A DNA stretch of 64,000 nucleotides from Sipunculus nudus (Eukaryota > Annelida > Sipuncula > Golfingiida > Sipunculidae), in NCBI GenBank assembly GCA_026874595.1, contig CM049309.1:67314926-67378925 (forward strand). Reading direction: 5' to 3'. A model generated the notes under the pieces. That model did not search any database, was not told where the DNA came from, and worked only from the letters and a program-made list of their open reading frames with translations. Below, in pieces: positions 7,301 to 60,550 of the stretch. Both the position numbers and the translations under genes were made by a program. How positions within the stretch are numbered: the stretch's first letter is position 1; each line of letters starts with the position of its first letter.

Positions 7301-10300
7301 ATGACAGTTTCCCTGTCTGTTCAGTGAAATGTCCTTTGAAAGGTTCTGTAGGTTTTATACAGTTTTGAGACCAGCTTGTTATGCATGATCTTTGACTAAT
7401 AGACCTTGTTGTATGTTTTGTTTCCTTTGAATTTCCATCCCGTTATGCATGCCGGATTTGCAGGACTATGTAGTAAGTGGCCATTTGCCTTTTTTATCCC
7501 ACACAAATATTGTTGTGTGACTCAGGGTGCAATTCCATGTATATGTGGATCCCATGTGGGATCACAGCTAGAAGTCTCCAGCTAGTTGATAATCATTGTC
7601 CAGTTTCTGGATTTTTGTGGATCCCACATGCTATACATAATTGCCCTGTCTTTTGAAATATGGAAAGATGCTTTATAGATTGCAAGGCAGCATGAAAGGC
7701 TACAAATCCAGTGTTCTTATTGGAAATGAAGTTGTGTAACAGGAGATGGTTCCTATCATACTATTGTATGACCACTATCATACAATATTTATCCTCCACA
7801 ATGAACTTTGTCTTCCTATTATAATTGTTTACAAATGCATAACATTGGATAAATAATTTAAAAAGAAATGAAAAAAAATAAATAAAACATATTTTTATGA
7901 GCAAATGAACTTACCACAAGAAATTGATTATCAATCAACTGCGTGCATGACTCACACATGCAGAATCTATCTGCATGGAAGTCCCAGCATGAGGTTTGTA
8001 CAGGTCCCACATGGGCAAAAATCTGCATAAACGGAAATACACCCTTGTCATGAAATTACATTTTGTAGTGGCTAATGTCAGATCTTAATTTACAGAGAAG
8101 AGGGCTAAGTCTCCTTTTTAAATAGTAGGATTTGGAAAATTCTTAATGTACCTGAAATTTATTCATGTGAATATCAAGGCAACAATATTCTTTGTTTTTG
8201 TCTCAGCTGTTATCTGAAATTTGACCATGATTAGCAGCAATAAACATGGAAAAAATCTGGTCAGTTTCCAATCATGTTTACTTGTCCCTTTTTAAATCAC
8301 ATGAACTGCAAATGAACATGGCAAGAGACTTTGGAAATATCTAAATAATTAATTCGAGTTTCTTTCATGCACTTGTACAAAAATATTTTATTACATGATA
8401 CAAATATCAGTGTTTTATTTAATTGATTTACTTTATATAAGTTTTGATAATTTTTGTAATTTTTATTTAAAATATAATATAGGGTGTTCCAACACCAAAA
8501 GTAACAGCTGATATATCCATTATTTTTCCCATGTATTAAAATGTATAAGAATGTGTAAAGTGATCTGTAATCTCATGTTGTAATATATATCTTCAGTCTG
8601 ATGAAGTGTACCTGGAAGCACAGATACAGAATATCACACCCGGTCCAATCTATATGGAGCGTGTGGCCCTGGAGCCATCTGATCATTACGACGTGGTGGA
8701 ACTCAACACGTCAGGCCCAAAGGACAGGTGAGCCATCACACAAATTTATGTATCAGAAATACCAGTCCTGGTAGCCTGGTAGGTAGCCTGTCAGAGCTCA
8801 GCTTCACCGTCATTTCATGTCATGTCCACCTTAAACAGGTTCAGGCAAACTCGGCTGATTTTACTGAAGCTGCTGTAAATTCTTTAAGCTTAAGTGGGCC
8901 AATTTTTTTTAATCAATTTTTCCTTAATCAAGAAAAAAATATGGTTTTCCAAAAGATGAAACCCATATAAAGGCCTCCTAACCCACATCTGTTACAGTGT
9001 ATGATGTTTTATTGTATCGCCAAAGTCTGGAGATACTATGGTTTAGTCTCCACCGCTGCCGCCACCGCAGAGATGGACACGATAACTCAAAAATATTTCA
9101 CGGATCTTTACCAAACTTGACATGTACAAAGATATGGGTCAGAGGATAAAGCCTTTTTAAAATGGGGTCATGATCTTTACTAGGAGAGTGACCTAGACCT
9201 TGAATATTTCCATTTTGGGGGAAAGTCACACAAATTCTGAAATATCTCAAGAAATCTTGCATGGATTGATCCAAAAATCTACTTGATGGAAGATCTTGGA
9301 TAGTGTTGTCATGTGCTGGAAACTGGTGGTGCCACCTGGTATCCTTTTCTTGTTTTCGTGCTGTTAAATACCCCCTTCATTGCCACTTAACAATACTCTG
9401 AGCATTATAAGTCAAAAACTAATGGACAGAATTCTATCATATTATGCATATACAAAGACATGGGTTATTGGATGATGTATTTTTAAAGTGGGGGCATGAC
9501 CTTTCCTGTGAGAATGGCCTTGACCTTGAATATAGCCATATATGGTGAAAATCACACTTGATCATAAATATCTCAATAGGGGATGCCTGGATTGGTCCAA
9601 AAATCAAATTGACCAAAGATCTTAGATAGCTTTGTCTTTTGCGGAAGACAGGTGGTGCTACTTTCTGTCTTTCTCTTGTTTTCTTGCCTTTTTATACCCC
9701 TTCATTGCCACTTGACAGTACTGTGAGCATTAAAAATCTAAAACTTATGTACAGATTAGGCTGAAATTGTGCATATACATTGATCTTGGATACCTCCATC
9801 TTGTATTCAAAACTGGTGGCGCCATCTGCAGTTGTTTGCCTTGGTGTCCATCTGTACATGTGCTTTAGGTGAAAATTGCTTATATCTCTGGAGTGAATCA
9901 AGGTATTGGTCTGAAATTTGACGTGTCCGTCCATCTAGGAAAGTTTTCTGGTAAACCCGACAGGTGGCGCCACCTGTCTTCTCGTTTATGTTGAATAAAT
10001 TAATGCCTTTTTCTGAGGAGTGATTTTTCCTATTGGCCTGAAATTGTGCATATCCATAGATCTTGGACTCCTCCATCTTGTACATAAGACTAGTGGTGCC
10101 ATCTGCCATTTTTTTGTGTAGTGTCCATCTGTACATTTGTGTTAGATGAAAATTGCTCATATCTGAGGAGTCCTTCAATGTGTTGGTCTCCAATTTGGCA
10201 TGTACATTCATCTTGGAGTGTTTTCTCATCAACCAGACAGGTGGCGCCACCTCTGAGTGTTTTCTCGTCAACCAGACAGGTGGCTTCACCTACCTTATGA

Positions 10301-13300
10301 TTTTTAGCTCAGCTTCCTGAAAGTCATCTGAGCTATAATGATCACCCTTTGTCCAGCTGTTGTGATTATAACCTGGTCCAGGATGCATTGATGACAAACT
10401 TACAAGTCTCTCAGTTGATGTAAAAGATTCTTTATTTTAACTATACAGGAGAGGGTATGCCAAGACCCTTTTCAGGGCTTGGACCCCAAGTTTGTAACTA
10501 CCTCTACCCCAACAGCATATCTTCAAGCAAGATTCATAAACCATAATAAACCAATCAGAGATTTCCCTGACTTGTCACATAGTTTCAATTAAAGAAAGGT
10601 GTGCAAAGGAGCTGAATGAAAGTGCAATTAGACTGAATAGAGTTGCCATGTAATCAAGGCTAAGCAATTACAGTCATTATGTAAATACCTGGCAACTCAG
10701 CTCTGACATTTGAATACACAAAAGTCCCAATTAACTTAAACACCTGCAACTTACATAATATATAATAATGATGAAATACAGAGAGGGAGAATTGTAGTAA
10801 TAGACTGGCCTTAGTACATTACACAGCGTCCGTCCGGCCATCCGGCCGGCCGTCTGTTAACAGGGCACAAATCATAACCTTTAGACCTAGAAACTTCTAG
10901 TTGTACATCCAGGGAGGTCCTGGGCATATCTACTTGGAAACCTGAAATTAGGTCATGGTGACCTATATTTTTTACTTACGGCCGAATTGATTTTGAGGAC
11001 CCAGACAGTCAGATTGGGCACAAATTGTATCCATTAGGCCAAGAAACCTCATACCTGACATTTTGGGATATCCTAGGCAAATGTCCTTGGAAACCTGAAA
11101 CTAGGTCACTGTGACCTATATTTTGTGACTTGCAGGCTGAAAACATGATTTCAAGCAACCTGAATGTCAGATGGGGACAAATCATATCTGAGCCTAGAAT
11201 CTTCTACACACAATATCCTGGGAGTTTCTAGGCAAATCTCCTTGGAAACCTGAAATACGTTCATAGTGACCTATATTTTGTGACCTTCGGGCCGAAAACA
11301 TGATTTTTATCATCCAGACAGTCAGACAGGGCATAAATTGAATTGATAAAGCCTAGAATCCTTTAATGTGACTTTTAGGGAGGTCCTAGGCAAATCTCCA
11401 TGGAAACCTGAAATTCGGCCATGGTGACCTATATTTTGTGACTTGCAGGCTGAAAACATGATTTCAAGCACCCTGAATGTCAGATGGGGACAAATTGTAT
11501 ATGTGAGGCCTAGAATCTTTTAACTCAATATCCTGGGAGTCAATAGGAAACCTGAAATACGTTCATAGTGACCTATATTTTGTGACCTATGGGCCTAAAA
11601 CTTGACTTTGAGCACCCAGGCAGTCAGAAGGGGCACAAATAGTATCCATTAGGCCTAGAATCCTCCAACAGGACATTTAAGGAGGTCCTAGGCAAATCAC
11701 CTTGGAAACCTGAAATTTGGTCATGGTGACCTATATTTTGTGACTTGCAGGCTGAAAACATGATTTCAAGCACCCTGAATGTCAGATGGGGACAAATTAT
11801 ATATGTTAGGGCTTGAATCTTTTAACTCAATATCCTGGGAGTCAATAGGAAACCTGAAATACGTTCATAGTGACCTATATTTTGTGACCTATGGGCCTAA
11901 AACTTGACTTTGAGCACCCAGGCAGTCAGAAGGGGCACAAATAGTATCCATTAGGCCTAGAATCCTCCAACAGGACATTTAGGGAGGTCCTAGGCAAATC
12001 ACCTTGGAAACCTGAAATTTGGTCATGGTGACAAACATTTTGTGACCTACAGGCCAAAAACAGGAATTTGGGTATCCAGAAAGTTAGTCAGGGCACACAT
12101 TGTATTTGTTAGGCCTAGCATTTCTAATGTAACATTCTGATGTCTGATGTCTGCAAATGTCTGTGGAAAACTGAAATTAGGTCACTGTGACCTATATTTT
12201 GCGACCTTTATGAAAAGAAGTCATAAAGGCACCCAGACAGCCAGTCAGGGCACACATTGTATCTGTTAGGCCTAGAATCTTCTAATATTACATTCTGAGA
12301 CGTCCTTGGCCAATGTCCTTGGAAAACTGAAATTAGGTCACCGTGACCTATATTTTTTTACCTATGGGCTGAAAAATGGTTTTGAGCACCCAGACAGACA
12401 AGGCACAATTGTATCCATTAGCCCTAGAATCCTCTAACATGACATTCAGGGAAATCCTTGGCAATTCTCCTTGGAAACCTGAAATTGGATCATGGTGACC
12501 TATATTCTGCCAGCTATGGACCAGAAACATGATTTTGAGCACCCAGACAGACAGGGTACAAATTGTTACCATTTTCCTTGGAACCCTCTATTGGGAAATC
12601 TTGGGGGGCTCCTGGGCAGGTCTCCTATGAATCCTGAAATTTTATTTTCTGTCCATTTTTTCAACACTGTAACTTTAGCCATATGCTATTCTCACAGACA
12701 ATATATAACATTAAAAAAATGAGCACCCAGTCTAAATTAGCTGAGCATCATGGCCAGTGGGCCACTTGTTATAGTATAAATTTATCCCCTTTTCATAAGA
12801 GTGATTCTCTGTATTGGCCCCCAAATTTGGTGAAAAATATTGTTCTCAAGGTGATAGATGTTCTATAGTGGCTTGCCAAGTGACAGTATATGCTGATGAA
12901 GATGGGGGATTCTAAAGGGGGGGGGGGATTAATTGTCTGGCAATACTATGGCACCTGCGGTGCCAAGACATATCTGGTTGTTATTTGTTTCTTAAATGTT
13001 CAGTTTTTGGGGTGTGTTTTATATCTGAATACTGTTTTCAACTTAGTGTGTCAATCATAGTTGTAGTGGCTGATGTAAGTACAGTCATACAGTTGACAGT
13101 CTGTAATCACGGAAGGGGTGGATAAAATTTTTCAGACTTCAAATAGATAAAATGAATAACTTGTGAGATTGCAGAGTCTATGGAGTTTACACAGTCTGTC
13201 ATCAAGGATAGGATTGATCAAATTTATCAAACTTAAAATAGATTAAATAGATAAGAACTTGTGACATTGCCATATTCTCCCCAGTCATTTGAAGTTAACC

Positions 13301-16300
13301 AATTTTTTTCAAGGTTAATATGAGTCATGACATCCTTTTGTCAGATGTCATTTCTACTCAAAATGAACCTCTTCTGTTTGGGCACTGTGGGACAGGGACT
13401 AATAAATTGTCTCAACTGTCAAACTTCAAATTCAAAATTTGTTACATTTCAAGGAAAAACCTGCTGTTTACATTTCTCAACCACAGTTTTATAATATATG
13501 AGGAGAATATTGGAAACCCTTGCTTTCTGGAATACGGGATATCGCTAATACTGATACTCTTGTGTGTTGAGGCAGTAAATGACTGCATGCTTGAAAAACT
13601 GCAGGCAAACAACTAGTGCCCCCTAGCGTCCAACCTGACCAGCCCATTCATTCAACACAGCAGTGTGGACACTGGACATAGTGGTTTTAATTTCCGATCA
13701 TCCTGATGCTTATTATTCATCATATTCATTTTGCCTCGTTAAACCATAATACAAAACATGAAAAGACATAAGAAAATTCTCCATTTGGCTTGGTTTGCAT
13801 TAGAACTTGATCTTGAATCAACTGCCTTGTAGCGGATGATATAAGGGTAACATACACAGGGTCTTTAGTCATTGATAAACGTCATATTTGCAAGTTTTCT
13901 TGAGTTATGATGCATTATGGTACGAAACAATTGTAACCTCGTATTTATTCATATTAATTAAAGAGATTCCATAGCGCGTATAAGCTGACAAAGTGGGGAC
14001 TGTCAGTTTCGTCCGTGTTAATGAGTGTCCAGCTGAATCACGCTTGCCTGTACAAACAAGCTTCCGGCTGTGCCAGCCAGTTGTTTTTCTCCTCCATCTA
14101 AATGAGAAGCTGCATTAGCGATATTCCGTTTTATGCTTGCCCCAGCCTAATGGGGACATAGGAGGGCACTACTCCAGTGGACCAGAGATATCAGGCTGTA
14201 TTACAGCATGGCCAGGTTCTCTGCCATAAACCAAGGGTAGGCTAATCGGTTTAAACTGATGTTGGGTGGTTCAGGGTGACACTTGGGGTACACTTAAAAT
14301 GTTACTCTGACTAGTCACACAGTAAAGCATGTCCACATACAAACTTCATAGATAAGAGTAGATGACATCTATTAAAAATGAGGTCATTATCTCCTAAAAA
14401 TGTTTCACAGATGACATCTTGGCTCCAATGCACAACCAGTCACCTGAGACAAACAAAACTACCCCAGAGATGAAGTTCTCATGTCAGTGTCTGCAAATTG
14501 TACTGCAAAACATATGAAAAATATGTAAAATATTTTATCTTTATAAAAAAATGTCCACTTTACTCATTTTCATTTTTTCAATAACATCAATAATGAATTT
14601 TTTTGGGTTTCGGACACATTTAAAAAAAATTTATACAAAGCTAGGTTTCACTGAATTTAATATGCAATACATGATTTAATACTTCTGACAAGTAGCTGAA
14701 TTCAACAAATTATGATTTCAGGTTGACCATGTGCAGGCTTGCTTTTATTTATGATATAGATGTCAAAGTGGTTTTGATAAAGTAAGGTTTCTGAAAATGT
14801 AGCTGCCAGAGCTTATTATCAAGAAGATAAGAGAAAGAAGTAATCTGTTGAGTAAATATTATGTATCTGCTTCCAGTTTCTAAACGACACAAGCATTTAA
14901 TGATGTTCTAACACCACAACCAAAGTTCTCAATAGGTTTTTGAATATCTGTTCCTAGCTTCTTTAATCATTCTGTTAACAAACACATACACATGGGAGGA
15001 AACATAACCTTACCGGGGGAAATTACAAGATGAAGAGTAGGAATATCAGTCATCATTGGTAATTTCACCCAAAGCTGACCCTTTCTAAAAAGGATGTACT
15101 AATAAAGTGAAATAAAATGTTGAGATACAGAATTTTGTCATTTTTATTCATATAAATATTATATTCCTTGCCAAAATAATATCTCAGGCATGACCTGCAT
15201 AGTAATCATGGGTTTTCATCATTCCAGGCAGTTTTTGCGGAATATGTCATCCCTTTGTAATTGCTAATTATAGAACTGAGCTTCACATTTCAAGTTTCAT
15301 CCCAGATGAGATTTCTGCTGCAAAGCAAAACAGAGTGTTTTCAGCTTTCTCCTAATTGCAGTACTGCAAAACTCCAGACACTCAAGATCAGATGGGTGCT
15401 TCAACTGTAAGCCTTTACCTCAAATTAGCTGAGACTTTCTGTTCTCATGAAAGGTATACATTGAGTGTTTTTATTTGAAGGATAGAGAGGGTTCTGTTGG
15501 TGTTATAACTCCGTCACATCTGAATTGTTCAAATTGATTATAGTTACATTAATATGATGTATTAATCTATTGTTCATACTGCATAAATATATTCAAAACT
15601 TTTTATCTGGTTATGCTCACAAAATCTGGGGAAGATGCATGTGAAATGGGGTTTCTAGAATCAGTAATTCAAAGCCTGCTATTAACCCTTCTTATTTTGA
15701 GAATGTATGTTATTTCTGGTTTATTCTGCATATGTATTGATATTGTTACTGCTGAGAAAGGTTCATACCCCCAGCAAATGAGTTATGAGCTTGTTTATCC
15801 ACAAGCTGTTAGCAGTGAGGTAGTCGAGTCCTCACCATCCAGGTCTGAGTGCAAGTCCAAGTCCAGGCCACTCAAGTCTGATCCTGTGTCCTTGACATTG
15901 GAGTCCAAATCCACCTTCTTCCAGTCTGAGCGGTCGGTCTTTTTACCGAGCGTACCGAGCGCTACCGAGCGCTAGCGCTCGATAGGACTTTTTACCGAGC
16001 GCTACCCTGGATTCACACCAGGCATTGCTCTGACCCGCGTAGGGCTACCGAGCGCTCGGTCTTTTTACCGAATGCTACCCTGCTCTAACAACGGGCAGTG
16101 TACTTACATGCTTGGAACTACCGAGCGCTAGGAACTTTTTACCGAGCGCCACCATCGCGCACATGACAACTAGTTTTCTAACCGTATTCAGCACAAAACA
16201 TCATATTCATGTTATTTAGAATAAAGCACAATTCTCAGTTAGTCCAGCAAACAAAATAACTAACAATGCATATAACTTGGATGATGTCGGATGATTTCTC

Positions 16301-16601
16301 ACCAAACTGTGTAACACCTTTTGCATAAATTTCTTTAAATGACGGTTATATACCTATATATAAATATGTATGCTGACTACCTAACGCCATCATCGGAGCC
16401 ATGGAGAGTGCCGCGATTAGTTATAATAACTTTTTGTACAATCCATGTAAAATAAATAAGATTATATTTATGTATATATGAAGTTATTTAATGTTATGAT
16501 ATACATACTTATAAATTGGAGATATATATATGTATACATATATTCATATATCAGTATATATATATATTATTTAATATTATGCTATATATTTACATATATC
16601 A

Positions 16602-16687
<86 letters not shown>

Positions 16688-16773
16688 GGTAGTGTTACCC
16701 TTCGATGTAAAGTGCTCTATGGCCTACAGACTAGGCCAGAGCGGTATAACGTGTGGTTTTTCATCATGCAGAG

Positions 16774-16858
<85 letters not shown>

Positions 16859-16997
16859 GCGAAGGTAAAGATAAACAGTGACTTTTTTAGATAGACTAAC
16901 TAGACTAAATAGTTTATTAACATATGAGCTTTCGAAGCACACAGGCTTCTTCGTCAGGTGGTAATTCAACTACAGACTATAACACGGCTATACCGCT

Positions 16998-17037
<40 letters not shown>

Positions 17038-20000
17038 GGAGTGAGAGAGAGAAAAAGAGACAGAGAAAAGATAAAGTGAAATAGAAAGAGAGAGCCATAC
17101 TATATAAAATATTTATCCGATATATAAAGGAGAGAGAGAAAAAAAGAAAGAAAGAGAGAGATAGAGAGAAAGAGAGACAGAGAAAGAACCTGAATCAGAA
17201 GGAAAAGTAACAAAGACCTATACTTTATATAATATTTATTCGATATAGGGATAGAAAGAAAGAAAAGAGAGATAAAAAGAGAGATAAAGAAAAAGGAAGA
17301 GAGTAAGAAAGAGAGAGAAAGTAAAAAAAAAAAAAAAAGAGAGAGAGGGAGAGAGAGAGAGAGAATGATTGGGAAAGATAACATATATAAGCCTATATTT
17401 ATTCATGGTCTATAAAATTAAACAAATACAATGTAAATAATTAAACATGATTTTTTATGTTTGAATGCATTTGTCATGTGCGCGATGGCAGCGCTAGGTA
17501 AAAAGTCCTTAGCGCTCTGTTGTACCAAGACGTTTGAATTAAGTATGTAAGAACACTATACCCATGTAAGAGCAGGGTAGCACTCGGTAAAAAGTCCCTA
17601 GCGCTCGGTAGCCCCACGTGGGTTATACCATTGCCTGGGGTGAACCAAGGGCAGCGCTCGGTAAAGAGACCGAGCGCTCGGTAGCCCTACGCGGGTCAGA
17701 GCAATGCCTGGTGTGAATCCAGGGTAGCGCTCGGTAAAAAGTCCTACCGAGCGCTAGCACACGGTAGCGCTCGGTAGCGCTCGGTAAAAAGACCGACCCA
17801 GTCTGAGTCATTTGGAACTTGAGTCTAAGTCTGAGTCCAATACAAATCTTCTTATTAAAAGAAATTTAAAAAAGGATATTTGAGATAATCATGGAAATTT
17901 TATGTTAGTTTAAAAGTGTCCCTTTATTTAAATGTTTAATTTCATTTACCCCTCTGATGCAGAGCTAAAACATGGTATATATAGTCTTTTTTTTTTTTGG
18001 TAATATTCTGTTGGAAGTCCCCCCCCCCCCCCCCCCCCCTGTACAGTCTTTATTTAATTTGTAACAGATTGGTTCTTACTGGACTCGAGATGGACTCAGC
18101 TTAATCTCTGGATTCCTTATATCAAAGTCTGAGTCCAGGCCCCTCGATTCCAAGTCCGAGTCCTTAAGAAGTTGACTGGAGTCGGACTCAAGTCCAAGTC
18201 CAGACTCAAGTCCTACATTACTGGCTGTTATTAAATATGGCCCATGTGCCCAGGTTGACAAAGAGAAAAAAGCATGAAACCAAAGATGGTTGATTGCACT
18301 TGTGGGGAAGCTGAAAGTTGCCTAGTTTTTGGTGATGAGAATATCTGAAGCAACACAGTCTTTTATAATTTGCCAAGTCTGATTTACTGCTAGATGTCAA
18401 TGATGGACATGTTTTGATTTTGACAAGCAGCCATTTAAGCATTCCTGTTACATGTTATAAGTGGATATAAATGAAACAGACAGCATTTGCAATGTGGGAT
18501 ATTTTGACTTATATTTTTGTAAAAGGTTCAAGGGGTTATCTTTATTTAATAGATGTCAGGTATTGGAATAGTTCCCTTTTAGGTATAGGTTGTAGTCTAA
18601 GCCTAGTGGTTAAAGAGTTGAAGGTCTTTAATTTCCATCCCCTCCAGAGCCTCAAAGGTAAAAATGTGATATCTTGATAGAACCTTAGAGACTGGTTCTA
18701 ATGTGTTAATGATTGATTGTAGCTTTTGGATTTTTCTTTACCCCACTGAAATATAACTGGACAGTCTAGTGGTATTACAATCAACTCTCTCCACTGGAGA
18801 CCTGTGTTTGATTTCTGCCATGGCTGTTCTAGAGGCTCATGGAACTCATAAGAGGGGGATGGTTATCTCCTTGATCTCTGGTTTCTTCACCTCTAGATAC
18901 TACAAAATACCACCAGCTGAGCCATGGAGACTGCCTCTATTAGTTATAAAAAATAGTTGTACAATCCATGTCAAATAAATTTTAAACTCCAGAAGACTTA
19001 AAGATAACATACAAGTATTAGTGTCATAGTATTGGTACTTCACCCTCATGCAGTATACGGTCCCATCTGTATTTTTCTTTCTTAAAAAACAAGACATTTA
19101 ATCAGCAATAAAGAAAACCTGAATAGAGAGGACCTTAAATCCAGTTATTGGCACCTATATGCCTTTGATCTATCCATAGAAAAAGTATTTTTATAAATCT
19201 GTATTTTTCTATTACAGTGAGGAGAGTATTTTTGGGAAGGTGGACTATGTTAATGCTATGGACATCAGACAGTATTTGTACTGCCTAACACCAAAGGCTG
19301 GGGTGTACACAGACTCCAAGTCCTTGAAAGGGGTGACACATATAGGCAAACTGGATATTATCTGGAAAACTAATATTGGCGAAAAGGGGCGCTTACAGAC
19401 TAGTCAGCTTCAGCGGGTGGTAGGTATTTTTGCTTCCTATTATGATGCCTCATGTTTTATGTTATCACATTTTCCCACCTTGTTAATAATGTTTGAACTT
19501 AACACACACACACAGTCATACACAAACAGACAGGCAGATATGTGTCTGCATATCCTGTTCCGGAGTACAAAAATACCTTACATGATTTACTTTTAAGCGA
19601 GTAGCAGCATACCTCCTATTGATGGTGCCATGCCAGAGGAGAAGGGGGTCAAGATTAATCTTCCAATGTATGAGAGTCCCAAAGAAAGTATTTATTTTAT
19701 GGCATACCTCAAGGTAGTCACGCAATGGATGCACAATTTACAAACACATATTCAAAGATTACCGTAAATCTTGTTTTTATGGCCGCACATGTATTTATAG
19801 CCGCACCCTGAGTTTGCAAGGTCTCTTAAAGGAGCTCCCACGGAGGGCCAAATACTCAAAACCCCCCTTAAAGGCCGCACCTAGACTCCGTCTCTGGCCT
19901 GAGGATAAGAGTATTAGCAGCACATAGCAAAATAAATCACGACATAGCTGCTTTAATGAAGACTAGAATAAAAAGTATTAATTACAGAGGTTATATATGT

Positions 20001-38900: not shown

Positions 38901-41900
38901 TCATAAAAAAATATTGTGTGAAGGTAATTAAGTTTTCAAAAGTTAAATATATGGCCATACGAGTTAAAAATTAATCTAACAAAGTTTGACCAATATTCCT
39001 TATTTTAATACTAAGTTAACAGTGTTATTCACACCTAGGCCCTGCCAACTTTAAGAGATAAGAATGAAATGCTACAAAGTATTTATATCTTCTTAAATCT
39101 TGTCAGTAAGCACTAACATTAGATCCTAATATTTTATCACATTTGAATATTAGGATTAAATTCCTGAATTTTTTTTCTTTAAAACAATCAAAATTGTCTA
39201 AGTTCCATCAAAAAGAATTAAATTAACATTAAAATTATATGATTCATCTTGTTTATTATTCCTGTGTATTGAAGGGGTGGGTGGGGGAAGGGGTCTCTGT
39301 TGTTACTGCTCATTGCTGTAAAAAATGTTAATTTTAAGATTCATCTAGTTCATAGTACAGGTCTGTCAACAGAATGGGGGGGGGGGGGGGGGGGGGGGGG
39401 GGAGCTGGGGTTGCCAGAGAAAAAGGCTCCCTGTGGTATGGTATGCAGACAGCCTGATCAAGCTCAACTCAGTGGAGAGAGCTGCACTGAATGACCTACA
39501 GTCACCAAAGTGGACTGCTTGACAATGTAAGGGAATACAACAAGAGCCTCCAAAATAAGTTCAATTACTAGCCTAATTTTGCAGCTTTTATTTTCAAATT
39601 TCAGATTTTAACAGATTAAATCCTTATGTGCACATGCTGTGAAAATTAAATCCACAGTACTTACATGAAAAAAACATGCTGTGGCCAAAGTTGGGCTAAA
39701 TTTAAGGTACCAATTTTTATTTTTGCTAATATTTTAAAAAATTTAAAAGATTTTGATCTAATTTTGGGTATACAATTAAATTTTGATTAATTAAAGTTAT
39801 ATTACTGGAAAAAAGTCCTTAGCTTTAACACGTTTTGTGTTAGGCGATCAAATATCTTTCCTGATTTTTTTACAAAGTGCATTATGTTTGGGCCCATAAC
39901 TTTTTAAAATTAAATAATACTGACTTAATTTCTGGCATGTACATAGGAACTATATAGAGGAAAATTTATGGTAAATATGAAGAAAACCAGATGAGTGGTT
40001 TTGATATTAGGCAGTCCTGAAGTGTGAAAATAGATTTCTATTAAAAAATTGAGGATTTTCCTTAATATCTCGAAGGAACGAAGTCCTATTGAACCAATTT
40101 TTTGCAGGGTAGGAGATTTTGGGGACATCTAACTGTATGCCGAATTTCAGATTTATAGGTCCAATGGTGTCGAAACGTGCCAGTCTTACGGATGACATAT
40201 GGACGGACGGACAGACAGACAGACGGACGGACGACGGACAATGGACCACGACTATAGCTCAGATGACTTATAATCAGCTGAGCTAAAAATCTAACAGGTT
40301 CTTTCTTTAGTGATAGGCCATTTATAAGTCCTGTTTGAAATCCATATGTCAATCCAACCTAGAATTATCAACTGGAAACAAATCTGTGGATATAAATGGA
40401 TGGACAGACAAACAGATGAACAGACAGACAGACAAAGTGATTACTATAGGACATCCAATTGTGATCAATAAAGACACCAGGTTTTGGGACACTAGATGAA
40501 ATCACAGCTGAGAAACAGACATGGAGGTTGTCATTTTATAGTAAAAAAAAAATAGAAAAGTATTCGTAAAAATATGAAAAAAATACTGGTGGGGCCGCCC
40601 CTTTTCGGGAACTGACAAAACTAGTCATGGTCAATATTCAAGGCAAGTTTCATGGCAATACATGCATTAATTATCAAGATATTGGCGGTTTTGTATCAAT
40701 TTTTTTTATTATTCTTTGGGGTACTTACAAGCCCAATAACTCAGAGGATATAGGTTGCAGTGACCTTATTCAGGTTTTCAAGGAGATTTTTTATTGACCT
40801 CCTTGGATGTTCACTAAGAAATTTCTATGACTAGCAGTTACGATTGGTGCCCTGCTAATGGACAACTGGACAGCCAGATGGAAGACGGACAAAGCGCCAT
40901 TCCTATACCTCAGTTGACTTAACAGTCAGCTGAGCTAATAAAAACTTGAAGTGTCAGAACGACACGAATGCCCCCGCCTGGGGCAAATTAGACACATTTG
41001 TTAAATTTTGTAAAAATTTTTTAAGTTCAGGAGGTGTCATATGGTCAAAAGAAGGTCAACAAGGGCAAAATGCAAACTCGATCTATAACTGGTCATTATC
41101 AAGCAACACACCAAAAATGAGGCCAGTATCTGCAGGCATTGTGAAAAAAAATCCATACGTGCATTTTCATAAAAATTTTTGAAATTTTCTATGTTCAGGA
41201 TCTGTCATATGGTCAAAAATAAGTCAACTCGGACGAAACGGGAACTCGATCTGTAAGTGGTCATCATGTGCCAACAGACCAAACATTAAGCTAGTATCTG
41301 TAAGCATTGCATTGCAAAACTAGAATATTAGCAAAAGCTGATAATCAGTTATAAATTTAAATTGGAGAGGTATGTACCATGTTTCATAACAATCCACCAA
41401 ATGCTTCCTGAGAAATAAGCTCCTAAGTTTTTAGCTCAGCTGACTATAAGTCATCTGAGCTATAGTCGTGGTCCATTGTCCGTCGTCCGTCCGTCTGTCC
41501 GTCCGTCCGTCCGTCCGTCCGTCCGTCCGTCCGTCCGTCCGTCCGTCCGTCCGTCCGTAGATGTGGCACGTTTTGAAACCGTAAGACCTAGGAATCCAAA
41601 ATTCAGCATAATGTTAGATGTCCCCAAGATCTCCTACCAAGCCAAAAACTGGGTCTTTGAGACTTCATTCCTTTGAGAAATTAAGGAAAAACCTCAATTT
41701 TTTATTAAAAACCTATTTTCACACTTTAGGACTGCCTAATATCAAAACCACTCATCTGTTTTTCCTCATATTTCCTATAAATAATCCCCTATATAATTCC
41801 TATGTACATGCCAGAAATTAGGTCTGTATTATTTAATTTAAAAAAGTTATGGGCCCAAACATAATGCATTTTTTAAATAATCAGGAAAGAAATTTTATCA

Positions 41901-44900
41901 CTTGACACAAAACTTGTTAAAGCTAAGCACTTTTTTTCCAGTAATATTACTTTTATTAATCAAAATTAAATTGTATACCCAAAATTAGATCAAAATCTTT
42001 TAAATTTTTAAAAATATTAGCAAAAATAAAAAATTGGTACCTTAAATTTTGCCCAACTTTGACCATGGCACGTTTTTTTGCTGTAACTGCTGTGGATTTA
42101 ATTTTCACAGCATGTTTTTGTTAGCATTTCAACTGTTAACACCAAAAATTTGAAACCAGTTGATCAAAAACTGTAGATTTTATTCAAGTTTTCAAGCACC
42201 ATGTCACATATTGCTAGTGTTATGCAGTTTGCTAGAGCTCAGCTCCCGAGCTTCAGCTCTAAGTTCCTTAAATTTGGCATACAGTTAGATTTCTCCAAAA
42301 TCCCCTACCATGCCAAGAATTTGGTCACTAGGACTTAATTCCTTCGAGATATCAATGAAAAACTTAATTTTTCCATTAAAAACCCAATGTTACACTTTAA
42401 GACTGCCTAATATCAAAACCACTGATCTGACTTTGATCATATATAATATACATATTTTTCTATACATTCACTATGCACATGCCAGAAATGATGTCAGTAT
42501 TGTGTATTTTTTTTAAGTTATGGGCCCAAACATAATGCACTTTGTAAAAAATCAAGAAATATATTTACTCCCTTAACAAGGGCATTGCTGAAGCTAGAGA
42601 TCTTTTTTGTCAGGGATGTAACATTATTTAATCAAGATTCAATTGAATACCCAAAATTAGTTCTGAATTTTTCAAATTTTATAAGTTATTAGTATAAATA
42701 TAAAATTAGTACCTTAAATTTTGCCCAACTGTGACCATGGCACGTTTGTTTCCCGTGAGCACTGTTGATATAATTTTCATCTCATGCACACATAAGGATT
42801 TCAGCTTTTTAGTTTAGAAAGCTGAAAGAAATTTGCCAAATATTGTAGCTTTTATTAATGTTTTTTATGAGACCCTGTCAGACTTTGGCTCTCTCCAGCC
42901 CCTCTTGAGTCACCTGTATGTTGACCTTGTTGACCTTTCATCAAATTATGCACGCTTGAGGGGAGAATCCAGGCAGCTGATGGCCAGCCACAGTTGATCC
43001 AGGTGTTCAACCCAACTCATCTAGTAGTTTAAACCAACAACATAACAATAAACAATAAATTAATAAATTTTTATTGGTTTTTAATAACAAATTAAAGAAA
43101 AATAGAAAAGGAATTTGTTAGTTTATAATAACAGGAAATTAACTTGCAGTTACTGATGATATAAGAATCTTGTATCGATGGGTAGAATGTCACATATTCC
43201 AAATAACACCATGCAGTCACGTATGGCATTTTTCAGTTCATTTTTAATGATAAAGAAGTAAATCATATTATTCATTACTAATCATTAAGGATTATATGAA
43301 GGAAATTAATGATAGACAAAGATGCAGTTGATAATATTAATCTAGATTCCTACTGTGTCTAGTGTGTACATTGATGTGAAATTAGTCCAAAATGAATTCT
43401 TACAGTTATTTTTTAATATAAATAAAAGCCATAAAACCAGGTACTTATGATCATTATTTAAATGTGTGAATTTTGTATATCCTGGATTCTCAACATCATT
43501 GTTTGGTGAAAACTGAATAAATACCAGACATGGTGCGAATACTTTGTAATTGTATTTAAATACGAATATGATAATGTGTTCCATTATAAAATTTCTTGCA
43601 TAAAGAATGGGAATTCAGGTAAAAATGAAAGTATATGAATACTCGTGCAAATACTTTCAAAATGTATTCATGAATGCATTCATGAATATATTCTTTAATA
43701 TTATTTTAATAATCATATCAATTATATTTCATTTTGAAAAAATCATATGATTCTCTTATTATTTTTAATAAAAATTATATTTGGGACAATATTTGTAATT
43801 TTTTTAATAAATAGTTAAACTCTTATATTATATGTTCTGCTTATAAGTTATATGGCCAAGTCAAAATCTGTGTGACAGTAGTACTCCATTTGTTAATAAA
43901 ATAAATGAAATCAATCCTCTTCCCTGTCTCCAAAGGTACTATCAAAATCATACATAAGCTAAACAACAACAACTCATAATACAGCTTATATTTATTACCA
44001 CACAAAACCAGCATGTGCCTCATTTCTAAATAATATTTTTTTATCATATATAACAGCTGAGCGTCGTGACCCATAGGTCCCTTGTTTCTATACTAAGCTC
44101 TGTGACCTTGAAAAGTAGGTAAAGATCACCCATCTTTGAACTTGACCAAAATTTTGTAAATATCACGCATTAGCACTGAAGAAATTAAGTTCCTGTGTTG
44201 AATACCTTTGCAGATATCCTGCACAAAAGGCAAAAATTGAAAAATCTGATAAAAATTCATTAAAAAATCAGAAATTGTAGGTGGTGCCACCAAAATTGTG
44301 CAGCACGCACAGACCATCATTCCAAATGATCATAGTAAGTTTTGTGAAAATCCACACAATGGTTCCTGAGATATAAGCTTCTGAGTGTTTTTGTATAATC
44401 AGCTCTAAAACAAAGAAAAATAGGTCAAGGTCACCCATCTTTGCATTTGACCAAAATTTTGTTGATATACATCTTCACTGATGAAATAAAATTCCAACGG
44501 TGAATCCTTTTAGAGATATCCCGCTCACAAGGCCAAAATTGAAAAATCCAATAAAAATGGATTAAAAAATCAGAAATAGCAGGTGGCACCACCAAAATTG
44601 TGCAGCACGTACAGACCATCAGTCCCAATGATCATAGTAATTTTTGTGAAAATCCACACAATGGTTCCCGAGATATAAGCTTCTGAGTATTTTTCTATAA
44701 TCAGCTCTAAAATGTAGAAAAATGGGTCAAGGTCACCCATCTTCGAACTTGACTGAGATTTTATCGATATACATCTTCACTAATGAAATAAAATTCTAAC
44801 TGTGAATCCTTTTAGAGAAATCCTGCTCACAAGGTAAAAGTTAACAGACGCGGACGGACGGACGTCAGACGGACAGACAGACAGACTGACTGCAAGATGG

Positions 44901-47900
44901 ACGGACAGATGGACAGCTTGGGTGATGACAATAGCCCATCAGCCTATGAGCTGAGGGCTAAAAATGGCTGTACATGTACATTTGTCATGAAAATTTATAT
45001 TTTTCATACAATTTTCTATGTTTAGGAGCCGTAAAACAATCAAAAGTAGGTCAACTGTGACGAAACGCGCACTCATTCTGTAACTGGTCATTATCTGTCC
45101 ACACACCAAAAATCAGGCCAATATCTGCAGGCATTGCGAAAAAAAAGTCCATACAACTGTTTGATTTCGGAATGATGGACATGGGTAAAACTATATGCCC
45201 CGGCCACTTTGTAGCAGGGGCATAAAAATCAAGTTTGACTGAAACCTAACCAGGTTAGGAGACCCATAAATACCCTTGTAAACTTGATTAAGATATACAA
45301 AATTTAAACTTTTGATCTGTAGAAAGTAAAGTGTTACAAAATAACAGTGATTTCTTCTTAACAACATTTTGAAACAGTATATCACAATATAAAAGAATTT
45401 ATACTATAGAGGAACTTCAGCATAAACAATTTGAAGAATTTTCATTTTTTACTTGAAATAGACATTTTATAATTATAATAAAATGCTGTATTTTTTAAAC
45501 ATATATTATATGCATGTGTATGTTGTTACACAGACTTTCACATCTAATCATGCTGCCGAGTGTCATATCACTTTCTTAGCACAATTATGCTAATCAAACA
45601 ACAGTATCTCATCTGAGTACTCATAAAAATATAACTATTCAACTAAGTAACAATGGTCAGTGAGGGTGACCATTAATTGTAATTATATTAAATCTGAATT
45701 TAAGCAAATTTCAAACCCATCATTTGAACTTTACTTTAAATATACACACGGGTATCTATATTAGACCAGTTGACCAAGATCTTGCACTTCTGTCACTATT
45801 CAGCCCAGTGTATACAAGTGTAAAACACTGTGTAAGCGTAAGAACACTTTTGAACAGGACACTTTTGAAAATATTCTCCTCATGAAAAATTCCATTATTT
45901 CTGGGACTTAAATGAAACACCAGAGCACAGTTTAATCAACAGTGCAAAGTTCCATCACCGGAGTGATCAGGGCTTGACATTAATATCTAGCTTTACTTGC
46001 CCTACAAAAATCAGTGATTGCAGCCACAAACATAAAAAACGTGTTCCATTTGATTATTTTGCAAAAAATGTTTGTTTTTTTAATAATGTGTGATGTTAGC
46101 ATTTGCACAGATAAACACAGGTAATTTGAAACAGATGTATTACAATATGATTTCATCTCTCCAAGAAAGAAAATGGCTAACTTAATTACAATTAAAGGCC
46201 TTAGGTGTGTTTATGTTGGACCCACTTACCCAGTAGGAGCCCACTTTTGGTTGCCCTACTATCATTTTATGGATCTTTTACTTGAACCAGGATTACCTGT
46301 AAATATCGAGCCCTGGTGATGATACAAACATCAGATATCCCTGTAGCAATACATTAGCATTAGCAAGCAAAAGTTCATGAGAAAAATGGACCACTACAGC
46401 CCTTTCATGAGAAAATGAACCACTACAGCCCTTATTAGGTGTCACATTACCTGGACTTGTGAGAAAAATATTGTCTGTAATGATTCTGGCAGGGGGTATT
46501 TTTCTGAGGCTCCTTCCTCACTTAAACTGACACCAAATGCTGACTCTAGGCACTGTTCGGCAACTACAAGCAGAGTGAGAGAGCAATATTATTAATACAT
46601 CAGGCATGTATAAAGCTTTCAAGCACACACTCATGAAAAAGTTGGGCTAAAGTTGGATTGGAAATATAGAAATAAGAGGGGATCAGAGAAATTTTTCTCA
46701 GAAACAAATTTATATTCTGGCTTTATGTCTGCTCACAAAACGAATTTCAAGTAAGGATTACATAGGGGTAAAGAAGAGGCTGTGAGATTTTTCAAGGTCA
46801 GCCCCAACCAAAGGGAGCACCCTGCAGGATCAATAGGAAGGCCATGCCCAACAAACAAGTTTCACTTAAAAATAAGTGCATTTTCAGCCTTTCTTTGGTG
46901 GTATTACCTAGAAATGGTGATGATTACACAAACAAGGAACCACAGGTGCAGTTGTCATCAGGCCTGGTTAACACTAGAATATAAAATAAGAGGAAGTGTG
47001 TGGTACTGCCCTGTCAGGTAGTCTGAAATTAAAATAAAATTAATACTTAGTTAAGCTAGCATTACAAAAACAAGGGACCCATGGGTCACGGCGCTCAGCT
47101 GATCGTGATTGGACTATAAATGTTTCTCCACTGTGATACTATATCGAGTCGATAAAGCTTATGAATATCATGTACATGTTGGGCTATTATAAAGGAATGT
47201 AATGTAATATGTGAGTAAATGATAAATGAAATTACCTGACTGATGGATTAATAGAGTCAAATAAAGTGGTTTATTTTTTATTTATTTAGGAGGGGTTGAA
47301 AATTGTGATATATTTGAGCAAATATGAATGCAATGACAGCAGTAATAAGCAGTAGTAGATGATAAGGCTTTTTGTTGAAGGATCTAAAGTGTATGGTAGT
47401 CTGCAAGCGTTCAATTTGACAGATATGATGTTATGATTAACTATGCTGATGAAGTGATTTATGAATATGTGACTGTATGACACAATATCTCTTTAGTCTT
47501 GACAAGGTACATTATTGTGATGCCCACTATGTCTACATATTACACAATATTGACATAATTTCTGGCATGTACATAGGTACCTATGGACGAATAGTTATAC
47601 AAAATATTAAAGTATGAATATATCCGATTCATCTTGTTCTTGCTTACTGAGGCTGACTTTGGGATGGGGTTCGGAGAAGGGAAAAGTGAGGGCAGCACGA
47701 AGGTGGATGTAGAAATATTCTATTGTAATGTTTTTCATTTATATAAGAATATGAAAAGCTAAGAGGAAAGGGGCCCTCCTACTTGGTTATAGTAAAGTTC
47801 TAAATATATGATTGCAAACTAATACTCTGACAAGACTGTCATGAAGAAAAACAGTAAAAGTTTTGAGATACTGTGTTGCATACGAAAATTTACAGATGGA

Positions 47901-58387: not shown

Positions 58388-60550
58388 AGCTACGGAGCCA
58401 TGGTGGAAAATATTTATTATTTCGTGCGCTGAAATTACTAATCCTTATGCACGAATTACTAATTCGTGGCCACGAATTTTTAATTCGTGCGCACGAATTA
58501 GTAATTCGTGCGCACGAATTACTCGGTGTGAAAAAATAAATTTCCAAGGTGGAAAAAATATTTATTAATCCGTGCGCACAAATTACTAATCCGTGCGCAC
58601 GAATCGCTAGGTGTGAAAAATATATTTCCAAGGTGGAAAATTTTTTATTTCAATAGGATAACTAAGTAGCCGATAAGGCTAATGCAATTGCTCTCCTGCA
58701 TAAAAATTAAAAGAAAGTGAAAAATTAACATGAATGTATATATGTATTTATAAAGGATCAGATTAGAAAAGTGCAAATATATTCACACACGATAAGATAT
58801 ATATATATATATATATATGTATTTACATATATATATTTATATATATATATATATATATAAATAATATACGTTAATACAGATTGACATTCCACATACACTG
58901 ATACTTATACATATATTATTACAGGTATAGGCGTAATACAATAAAAATAAACGTCTCAGTCCATATCGAGCATATCAATGAGATTATAACCATCAGTTTT
59001 TCAATTGAAAATAGGTATAGATTTAAGTAACTGGCACCTAGTCGTAACCGAGTATGGATAATTTCATGTTGACGATGATTGTCGCGATAATAAACTGTAT
59101 ATTTCTCGAGAGGCAGGGTTTAAATAGTCACGAACATTTTCCTAAAAGGAATCGATTGAAGTAGATTGAATTACAGGAAACTGTTCAAAAGTTTGCAGGC
59201 TATTGAAAGGAAAGAAAAGAAAATTGGAAGGAAAGAAAAGAGTCAGTCTTTCCGTGTGAACCTCGGTATCTTTAGCAAATGCGATTTGCTCGGACTGTAT
59301 AGGGCTGAGCATTAGACAGAGTTTGAGTTAATATATTAGCAGATAATGTGGAGCTAGTCCGTTAATCATTTCATAAAGTGTGGATTGTTTAGCCAGCTCT
59401 CTTCTTATTTTTATACTTGACTATTATAACTCTTTTACCATAGCTCCAGTGCTGGAAGTTGAGAGCGCTCCAGTACATGTTAAACATGCTTTCCGTTGTA
59501 TACTCTCAAGCTAGTATGACTGTCTGACAGAACAATTGTTAAATATTAAAACACCACACTCAAGTACAAACATATTAATGATTTGTACATACGATCTAAA
59601 ACTTTCATAGAGAAATGGAATATATATTTTTTTTAAGAATTTCCAAACGCTTATTTGCTTTCAAACATATCATGTTTGTGTTCCTGTCAGGAAAACGAAT
59701 CCCAAATATGACATGAGAAGTTCTGTGAAGTTCATTTCACCTAGTTTATGCATGAGTAATTTGCAATTTAGCATCATCGTCAATGGCGATTGAGAACTGC
59801 AACTGCATGTAGTTACTTTGTGAACCAAAGTAACAGTAAAAAAAATTTCAGCCTGATCGGCTTTGTCTAAAATAATGTTCCAATTATGCTCCAAAGATTA
59901 TAAGGTTGGTTGTTTTTTTTTTTTTTTGTTTTTTTTTTTACCAGAGAAAGCCTTAGAAATTTTCCACCATGCACGGCAACTGGGTCTGTGAATTTTATAT
60001 CTAAATTCTTTAAGTATCACTTAAAGCCCTTTCTATTTTCAATATACAGAGTTCCGAATTTTCCAAGGTAGGAAGTCATGGAACTGTCGGAAGGCGCTGG
60101 GCTCCATTTTGACAACCGTGTGTGCCCGCTGAAACTGCCAGCCTGTGCCTATAGACTGAGTCGATGTGTGCTTGCTTCTCATTGGCTAGTAATTCGTGCG
60201 CGCGAATTAATAACTCGTGCGCACGAATTAGTAGCCAATGAGCATTGAGCCAGCAACTTAAGAGAGCTTTCTCATTTGTCACTAATTCGTGCGCATGGAT
60301 TAGTTATTCGTGCGCACGGATTAGAAATTCGTGCGCACGGATTAATAAATATTTTTTCCACCATGGAAATCTATTTTTCACACCTAGTAATTCGTGCGCA
60401 CGGATTAGTATTTCGTGGCCACGAATTAGTAAATCGTGCGCACGGAATAGTAATTCGTGCGCACGGATTAGTAATTCGTGCGCACGGATTAGTAATTCGT
60501 GCGCACGAATTAATAAATATTTTTCACCATGTCGTCTCCCGGGCTCCGTA
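58388..60550. mobile_element. Foldback element with AATTCGTGCGCACGAATT subrepeats
   Basis: Left arm (about 58388-58640): CATGGTGGAAAATATTTATT, a cluster of TTCGTGCGCACGAA palindromes, GGTGTGAAAAAATAAATTTC, CAAGGTGGAAAAAATATTTA, more palindromes. The right arm (about 60270-60550) is the same order in reverse complement, ending TAAATATTTTTCACCATG. CTACGGAGC lies outside the left arm and GGCTCCGTAAG outside the right. The interior (58640-60180) has (TA)n at 58798-58858 and no transposase. A smaller inverted pair sits at 60184-60242. Confidence 0.75.
60184..60242. repeat. Nested inverted repeat ending in CCAAT motifs
   Basis: CATTGGCTAGTAATTCGTGC and ...GAATTAGTAGCCAATG flank two palindromic units, so TAGCCAATG is present in both orientations at the edges. 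Confidence 0.7.

Follow-up and report, generated by a model that had tools for sequence, protein, structure and literature searches.

A tandem array of oestrogen-response-like palindromes in a TRAPPC13 intron of Sipunculus nudus as the probable central repeat block of a Helentron-associated element

The tandem array that fills part of a TRAPPC13 intron in Sipunculus nudus is very probably the central repeat block of a Helentron-associated interspersed element (HINE) of the pearl type, lying in sense orientation and truncated on the left, with an IR3 box that its units inherited and that would be inert for TRAPPC13. The stretch of DNA analysed here, hereafter the window, comprises 64,000 nucleotides of contig CM049309.1 (assembly GCA_026874595.1, positions 67,314,926 to 67,378,925). 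An initial annotation had described the array as carrying perfect oestrogen-response elements (EREs) at nucleosome-like spacing; the five striking motifs are here traced to a single feature inherited within a mobile element.

The array and its position in TRAPPC13

Exon-sized TRAPPC13 matches were obtained by tblastn at 8597–8710 and 19225–19419 on the forward strand, the query being the human protein. Since these matches lie on both sides of the array and on the + strand, the array is intronic and in sense orientation, in agreement with the placement given initially. TRF detected a tandem array at 10860–12554 in the window, with a period of 158 and 11.0 copies, in addition to a two-unit period of 302 bp. 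The array extends to about 12634 and contains 11 core-bearing units, with partial units at both ends (Table 1). The unit measures about 155 bp and neighbouring cores are spaced 144–159 bp apart, so that the array described previously is real and its count of twelve units is to be replaced by 11 core-bearing units plus partial ends.

Exact matches to the palindrome GGTCAnnnTGACC number five in the window, all inside the array, as had been claimed. The six imperfect cores each carry one change among the ten half-site bases of GGTCAnnnTGACC; one-base variants had thus been described correctly for the remaining units, and two-base variants had not. Units 5 and 7 of the window share 96% identity, and unit 6 lies closer to unit 4 of the majority sequence of genomic copies (0.91) than to majority unit 6 (0.84); by sequence, units 6–7 look like a duplicate of units 4–5. 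Elsewhere in the window, a 53-bp tandem repeat at 2655–2848 (3.7 copies) repeats a TRAPPC13 exon piece, PLDV(K/R)TKF, which was matched in three different frames and represents a tandemly multiplied exon fragment.

Table 1. Coordinates, in the window, of the element, its repeat cores and the intron that contains it
Feature	Position	Strand	Basis or remark
TRAPPC13 intron containing the element, ~10.5 kb	8711..19224 (approximate ends)	+	tblastn
Probable HINE (pearl-type non-autonomous Helentron) copy, 5'-truncated	10827..12770	+	17-sequence alignment
GTCC-type microsatellite-like left-flank segment GCGTCCGTCCGGCC...	10827..10858	+	aligned with GTCC-type segments of other copies
Central tandem repeats, 11 core-bearing units	10860..12634	+	TRF, unit alignment, genome copies
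Perfect IR3, spacer TGG	10951..10963	.	exact match to GGTCAnnnTGACC
Perfect IR3, spacer CTG	11104..11116	.	exact match to GGTCAnnnTGACC
One-base variant GTTCATAGTGACC	11259..11271	.	perfect in majority sequence of copies
One-base variant GGCCATGGTGACC	11417..11429	.	perfect in majority sequence of copies
One-base variant GTTCATAGTGACC	11561..11573	.	perfect in majority sequence of copies
Perfect IR3, spacer TGG	11719..11731	.	exact match to GGTCAnnnTGACC
One-base variant GTTCATAGTGACC	11863..11875	.	unit 96% identical to 11561 unit (local duplication)
One-base variant GGTCATGGTGACA	12021..12033	.	perfect in majority sequence of copies
Perfect IR3, spacer CTG	12180..12192	.	exact match to GGTCAnnnTGACC
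Perfect IR3, spacer CCG	12336..12348	.	exact match to GGTCAnnnTGACC
One-base variant GATCATGGTGACC	12488..12500	.	likewise imperfect in majority sequence
Last partial unit, repeat/right-flank junction	12635..12651	+	box flanks run on, palindrome between them missing
3' subterminal repeat TTAGCTGAGC	12737..12746	+	17-row alignment
3' terminal palindrome, TGGCC/GGCCA stem	12751..12764	.	window row of alignment

A dispersed element with HINE flanks

The array block (1,781 bp) was searched against the genome to which the window belongs, 153 contigs totalling 1.43 Gb, and gave at least 62 matches, the window's own included. Of the other locations, at least 23, spread over 13 contigs, align with 1,600 or more of its bases at 77–85% identity; both counts come from the 40 candidates that were scored out of 8,533 at first look. 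Sixteen copies aligned with their flanks to the window (17 rows) share sharp common ends, and the flank features described below were counted by eye across these rows. A GTCC-type microsatellite occupies the left flank in 16 of the 17 rows, among them the window. About 45–50 bases to the left of this segment, 14 rows carry a subterminal repeat (TTAGCTCAGCTGA or a close form), and its inverted copy (TCATCTGAGCTA or a close form) is found in 15 rows, being missing in the window copy and in copy L040, which has no matching left end. The window copy is also devoid of the left subterminal repeat itself, the sequence before about 10827 being missing.

At the right end, 16 of the 17 rows carry TTAGCTGAGCGTCATGGCCCATGGGCCACTTGTT or a near variant, made up of a subterminal repeat and, behind it, a palindrome. 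The former (TTAGCTGAGC or a close form; 16 rows, one gapped) is kept in the window copy, and its reverse complement agrees at 9 of 10 bases with a segment within the left subterminal repeat. The latter (TGGCCCATGGGCCA or close forms) is likewise present in 16 rows, the exception being L026, which has no matching right end; it reads TGGCCAGTGGGCCA in the window, where homology stops sharply after CTTGTT at 12770. The predicted fold of its majority form is no better than those of 45 of 200 shuffles. By eye, T runs precede most left ends of the copies and further T comes after about half of the right ends, and no target-site duplication was seen at the copy ends of the 17-row alignment.

This element architecture has been described (PMC7492417 and PMC5139131), and the HINE-defining parts, as described in bivalves, are the same flank features as in the aligned copies (PMC7492417); GTCY, GTCC or GTCK motifs are reported in the left flank of several Cg_HINE elements (PMC7492417). 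The entire block is found, colinear and with HINE flanks, at other places in the genome, and the array is best regarded as a HINE central repeat block. Rfam returned nothing at the gathering score, and a box pattern with 24 fixed letters occurred neither in viral_contigs nor in genome_contigs.

Other repeats were observed in the window. A second array at 44110–44909, with a period of 302 and AGGTCAAGGTCACC boxes beside a GACGGACAGACA microsatellite, resembles a HINE in reverse orientation, and the unit profile gave no match there. A single diverged unit of the same superfamily as the array units, with the core GGTCACTGCAACC, lies on the minus strand at 40731–40832. Tandem repeats of 21 bp based on the palindrome CGTGCGCACG or similar forms occur at 58414–58640 and 60190–60516, and TACCGAGCGC / AGCGCTCGGTA repeats are scattered over 15944–17786.

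One inherited feature rather than five sites

The majority sequence derived from the copies shows a perfect IR3 in 10 of the 11 units, the last alone being imperfect (17 rows; the same ten with 31 rows), from which it follows that the five 'EREs' of the window are one inherited feature; five of the majority's ten perfect cores have been lost in the window copy. The palindrome is the inner part of a conserved repeat-unit box, CCTGAAATTA-GGTCAnnnTGACC-TATATTYT, common to at least two large unit subfamilies. As copies of one unit kind, the five matches are not independent events, and the proper chance question therefore concerns one 10-base match in one unit of about 155 bp. The earlier argument from chance improbability is right in that GGTCAnnnTGACC has a shuffled-sequence expectation of 0.01 in the window against five observed, and it errs in counting copies of one unit as separate events.

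Five independent EREs are accordingly ruled out by the genome copies, the majority sequence and the unit comparison, which indicate a single ancestral unit type. A nucleosome-phased design, the sense in which the spacing had been presented, was dropped as well, since the spacing is the plain unit length of a satellite-like HINE repeat. Of the readings offered by the initial annotation, the last, fixation of the motif in an element followed by its amplification, agrees best with the data. We are confident that the observation is non-random and that a HINE central repeat whose IR3 box was inherited explains it.

Five perfect IR3s in one intron might also suggest that the array is kept by local selection as a TRAPPC13 regulatory element. 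This reading is highly improbable: 20 of 30 other fetched copies exceed the window's five perfect cores (range 2–11, some of the 30 stretches being shortened or containing extra units), and the window copy, at 11.1%, is more diverged than 14 of the 16 other aligned copies.

Genome-wide abundance of IR3 and of repeat units

A genome-wide count against a control, which had been proposed initially, was carried out with the reversed pattern as control and gave 18,988 perfect IR3s against 1,150, a 16.5-fold excess, whereas the same half-sites at spacing 4 gave 1,973 against 1,506, part of them from one 47-bp tandem array. With a strong excess at spacing 3 and little at spacing 4, the enrichment is specific to spacing 3 among the two spacings counted. 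A 47-bp tandem array at C1:2351836–2353776 was seen to carry the IR4 palindrome GGTCATACCTGACC in each unit among those listed.

Exact-flank patterns identified 1,861 units of the first subfamily with the core left blind (reversed control, 3) and 7,385 units of the second (reversed control, 1). A core-masked profile matched 7 of 10 sampled IR3 sites on C1 and three lay outside it, these ten having been hand-picked from 50 listed places with odd spacers included on purpose; on that sample, perfect EREs returned by scans of such a genome would mostly be HINE repeat. The IR3 sites of L001–L003 also match the unit by profile, and in L061 the IR3 itself falls within a stretch matched only at E 2.7e-4. 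A manual tally of spacers among the 50 listed places gave CAG/CTG at 29 and TGG/CCA at 8; the former is the spacer of the vitellogenin A2 ERE. The unit and core places listed are those met first along the genome (C1, once also C2) and not a random draw.

Sequence taken at fixed places on ten contigs (L005–L024, 200 kb) held no perfect IR3, about 2.7 being expected from the genome count, and two fragmentary units, a sample too small to gauge family size. AGGTCA is over-represented there (200 occurrences against an expected 107; 32nd of the 1,812 hexamers retained), and k-mers such as CGAGTCCG are far more so (70 against 0.8), derived from some abundant repeat.

Decay of the palindrome and the hairpin alternative

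Across 17 rows, half-site divergence is 4.2% against 7.5% in all other array columns, with 14.8% in the spacer. Strong core sparing on this evidence was rejected as largely artefactual: exchange or misregister between units raises divergence solely at positions where the units are not alike, and this biases a comparison with all columns. Set against unit-invariant columns, the half-sites stand at 4.2% versus 5.1% (p 0.43; 17 rows, no base matching) and, in 26 of 31 copies, at 4.8% versus 5.0%, with spacers at 12%. Base-matched comparisons in the 26 copies gave 4.8% versus 6.0% for fully invariant columns (p 0.038) and 4.8% versus 6.5% for columns at 90% invariance (p 0.014), p values being from column resampling and uncorrected. 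The five copies left out exceed 13% divergence and have unaligned unit registers, and the copies compared are the best matches to the window and not a random draw. Palindrome loss in dispersed copies is thus close to the background rate, the first half of the outcome that the initial annotation had set against its own proposal; as to its question of whether unit divergence spares the core, a slight sparing of the half-sites is found and a strong one is not. Judged from these columns, the half-sites may be under constraint, and subfamily differences together with inter-unit exchange may inflate the divergence of other columns.

In a sample blind to the core, 867 of the 1,861 flank-selected units are perfect, equivalent to a loss of about 7% per half-site base. 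Both halves are intact in 49 of 99 listed cores, where independent loss predicts 47.4 (one of 100 was dropped as unrelated), and in 192 of 312 boxes, where it predicts 189.9; these boxes were kept from 385 profile matches, gapped or inserted boxes being omitted and a few of those kept coming from loci fetched for IR3. The second subfamily behaves alike, with 24 of 49 printed cores perfect (49 of 100 listed) and 23.5 expected. With the right flank held constant, an intact 10-base core occurs in 2,467 units and an intact 8-base left flank in 1,861. These counts hint at better retention of the core than of the rest of the box across subfamilies; left-flank subfamily differences could, however, produce them too. 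CpG decay of CTGCGACC was rejected as the source of TGACC, as CGACC (4/49) and CAACC (1/49) are too few in the second subfamily. Taken by sequence, the palindrome is without clear maintenance at landing sites, and constraint in the active lineage is possible.

A different basis for keeping the box would be folding. In single-stranded DNA AAATTAGGTCAnnnTGACCTAtATTT is predicted to form a stem of 11 bp, closed by a 3-base loop and interrupted by one bulge, at -6.1 kcal/mol, with none of 200 shuffles as stable, and such a hairpin may mark repeat junctions or stall rolling-circle replication, thereby expanding the array. The outer AAA and TT (offsets -6 to -4, 17 and 18) are among the least-diverged bases in the 17 rows, the last unit stops at the right-flank junction with its palindrome missing, and for DTC84 of Donax a palindrome conserved close to the repeat junction has been described (PMC5139131). 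However, compensated changes at the seven inner pairs number 5 against 4.0 in shuffles (218 distinct boxes), and a hairpin kept by compensatory change was dropped on this count; moreover, the pair -2/14 is more variable than most columns (0.114 and 0.083, 17 rows), the array does not start at the palindrome on its left side, and junctions are reported without a statistical link to the conserved BIV160/Cg170 motifs (PMC5139131). A hairpin that helps to copy or expand the repeats is a tentative suggestion from modelled folds, rather unlikely as the whole account, and stands as a live rival or a complement to the HINE reading.

On the preferred HINE reading, a copy would have inserted in sense orientation in the TRAPPC13 intron, its units having received a perfect IR3 as the inner part of the conserved box. 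After insertion, the palindrome of each copy erodes near the background rate, with no sign of joint retention of its halves. The IR3 would have no role at TRAPPC13 and the five perfect sites would be survivors; any function of the box would presumably belong to the element's own active lineage, in replication, repeat amplification or its own expression, and not to individual landing sites.

Receptors and the prospect of receptor binding

ERR is encoded in the genome: a DBD query matched at 87% (C3:3612695–3612808) and 72% (C3:3600414–3600563), corresponding to two exons on one strand. Human ER-alpha and an approximate mollusc-type ER DBD retrieved no ER-like DBD among the matches listed, in an assembly whose gaps or masked stretches could hide an ER. 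The best first-finger match of the ER queries over about 36 residues was that same ERR exon (70–72%), matches of 24–27 residues reached 73% (e.g. C14:53564886) and were equally good with the ERR query, and full-length matches did not exceed 57%.

Mollusc ERs that have been tested bind EREs and are constitutive (PMC2529310), consistent with what the initial annotation stated, and ERRs are thought to bind EREs (PMC4388693). Its further idea of an ER decoy or enhancer is not supported, and neither is a functional binding of ER at TRAPPC13; no ER-like DBD was found among the matches listed, and the halves are lost independently.

A broader possibility is that HINE units constitute a dispersed platform on which ERR, ER or another nuclear receptor binds at the IR3, providing genome-wide enhancers or a sink. 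The strong excess at spacing 3 with little at spacing 4, the CAG/CTG spacer at 29 of the 50 listed places, the presence of ERR, the binding properties reported for mollusc ERs and ERRs, and slightly spared half-sites around variable spacers are in line with it. Nevertheless, an ER-like DBD was not found among the matches listed, about half of the flank-selected units are already broken, and the halves are lost independently, which is unlike selection on a dimer site; we consider this platform improbable. Slightly less probable still is a specific form of it, in which the Helentron lineage kept the IR3 in at least two subfamilies and spread most of the roughly 19,000 sites, ERR or another receptor binds them, and the element may hook a host receptor so as to be expressed in the germline, serving at the same time as a receptor sink across the genome. 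Should a receptor indeed bind the units, they would amount to a large Helentron dispersal of nuclear-receptor sites in an animal in which no ER was detected. Among the matches listed in a literature search, no paper that links EREs to HINE or satellite repeats of bivalves was apparent.

Comparison with known systems

Mammalian MIR and ERV1 are transposable elements that bind ER, a link drawn from ChIP-seq (PMC3478180). They resemble the present case as repeat families that spread nuclear-receptor motifs, the difference being that what is shown here is the spread of the motif.

The closest likeness by described architecture, as opposed to sequence, is to the Cg_HINE elements, non-autonomous Helentrons of Crassostrea gigas (PMC7492417), as far as the excerpted account goes. 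It includes a left subterminal repeat with its inverted copy and a GTCC-type microsatellite, satellite-like repeats (140–180 bp in the most abundant Cg_HINE clusters), a right subterminal repeat with a palindrome, an apparently T-rich target and dispersal that extends to non-coding parts of genes (PMC7492417). The two differ in unit number, with 11 here and at least five units in just 15.64% of the arrays surveyed for Cg_HINE, and in the IR3, which is present here and is not mentioned for Cg_HINE in the excerpts of that source (PMC7492417). DTC84 of Donax trunculus, with its conserved palindrome near the repeat junction, is likened by description and not by sequence (PMC5139131). The bivalve satellites BIV160 and Cg170 are comparable, again by description, in a monomer near 160 bp and in conserved segments despite divergence. 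The pearl family likewise carries central satellite-like repeats, of about 160 bp (PMC7492417).
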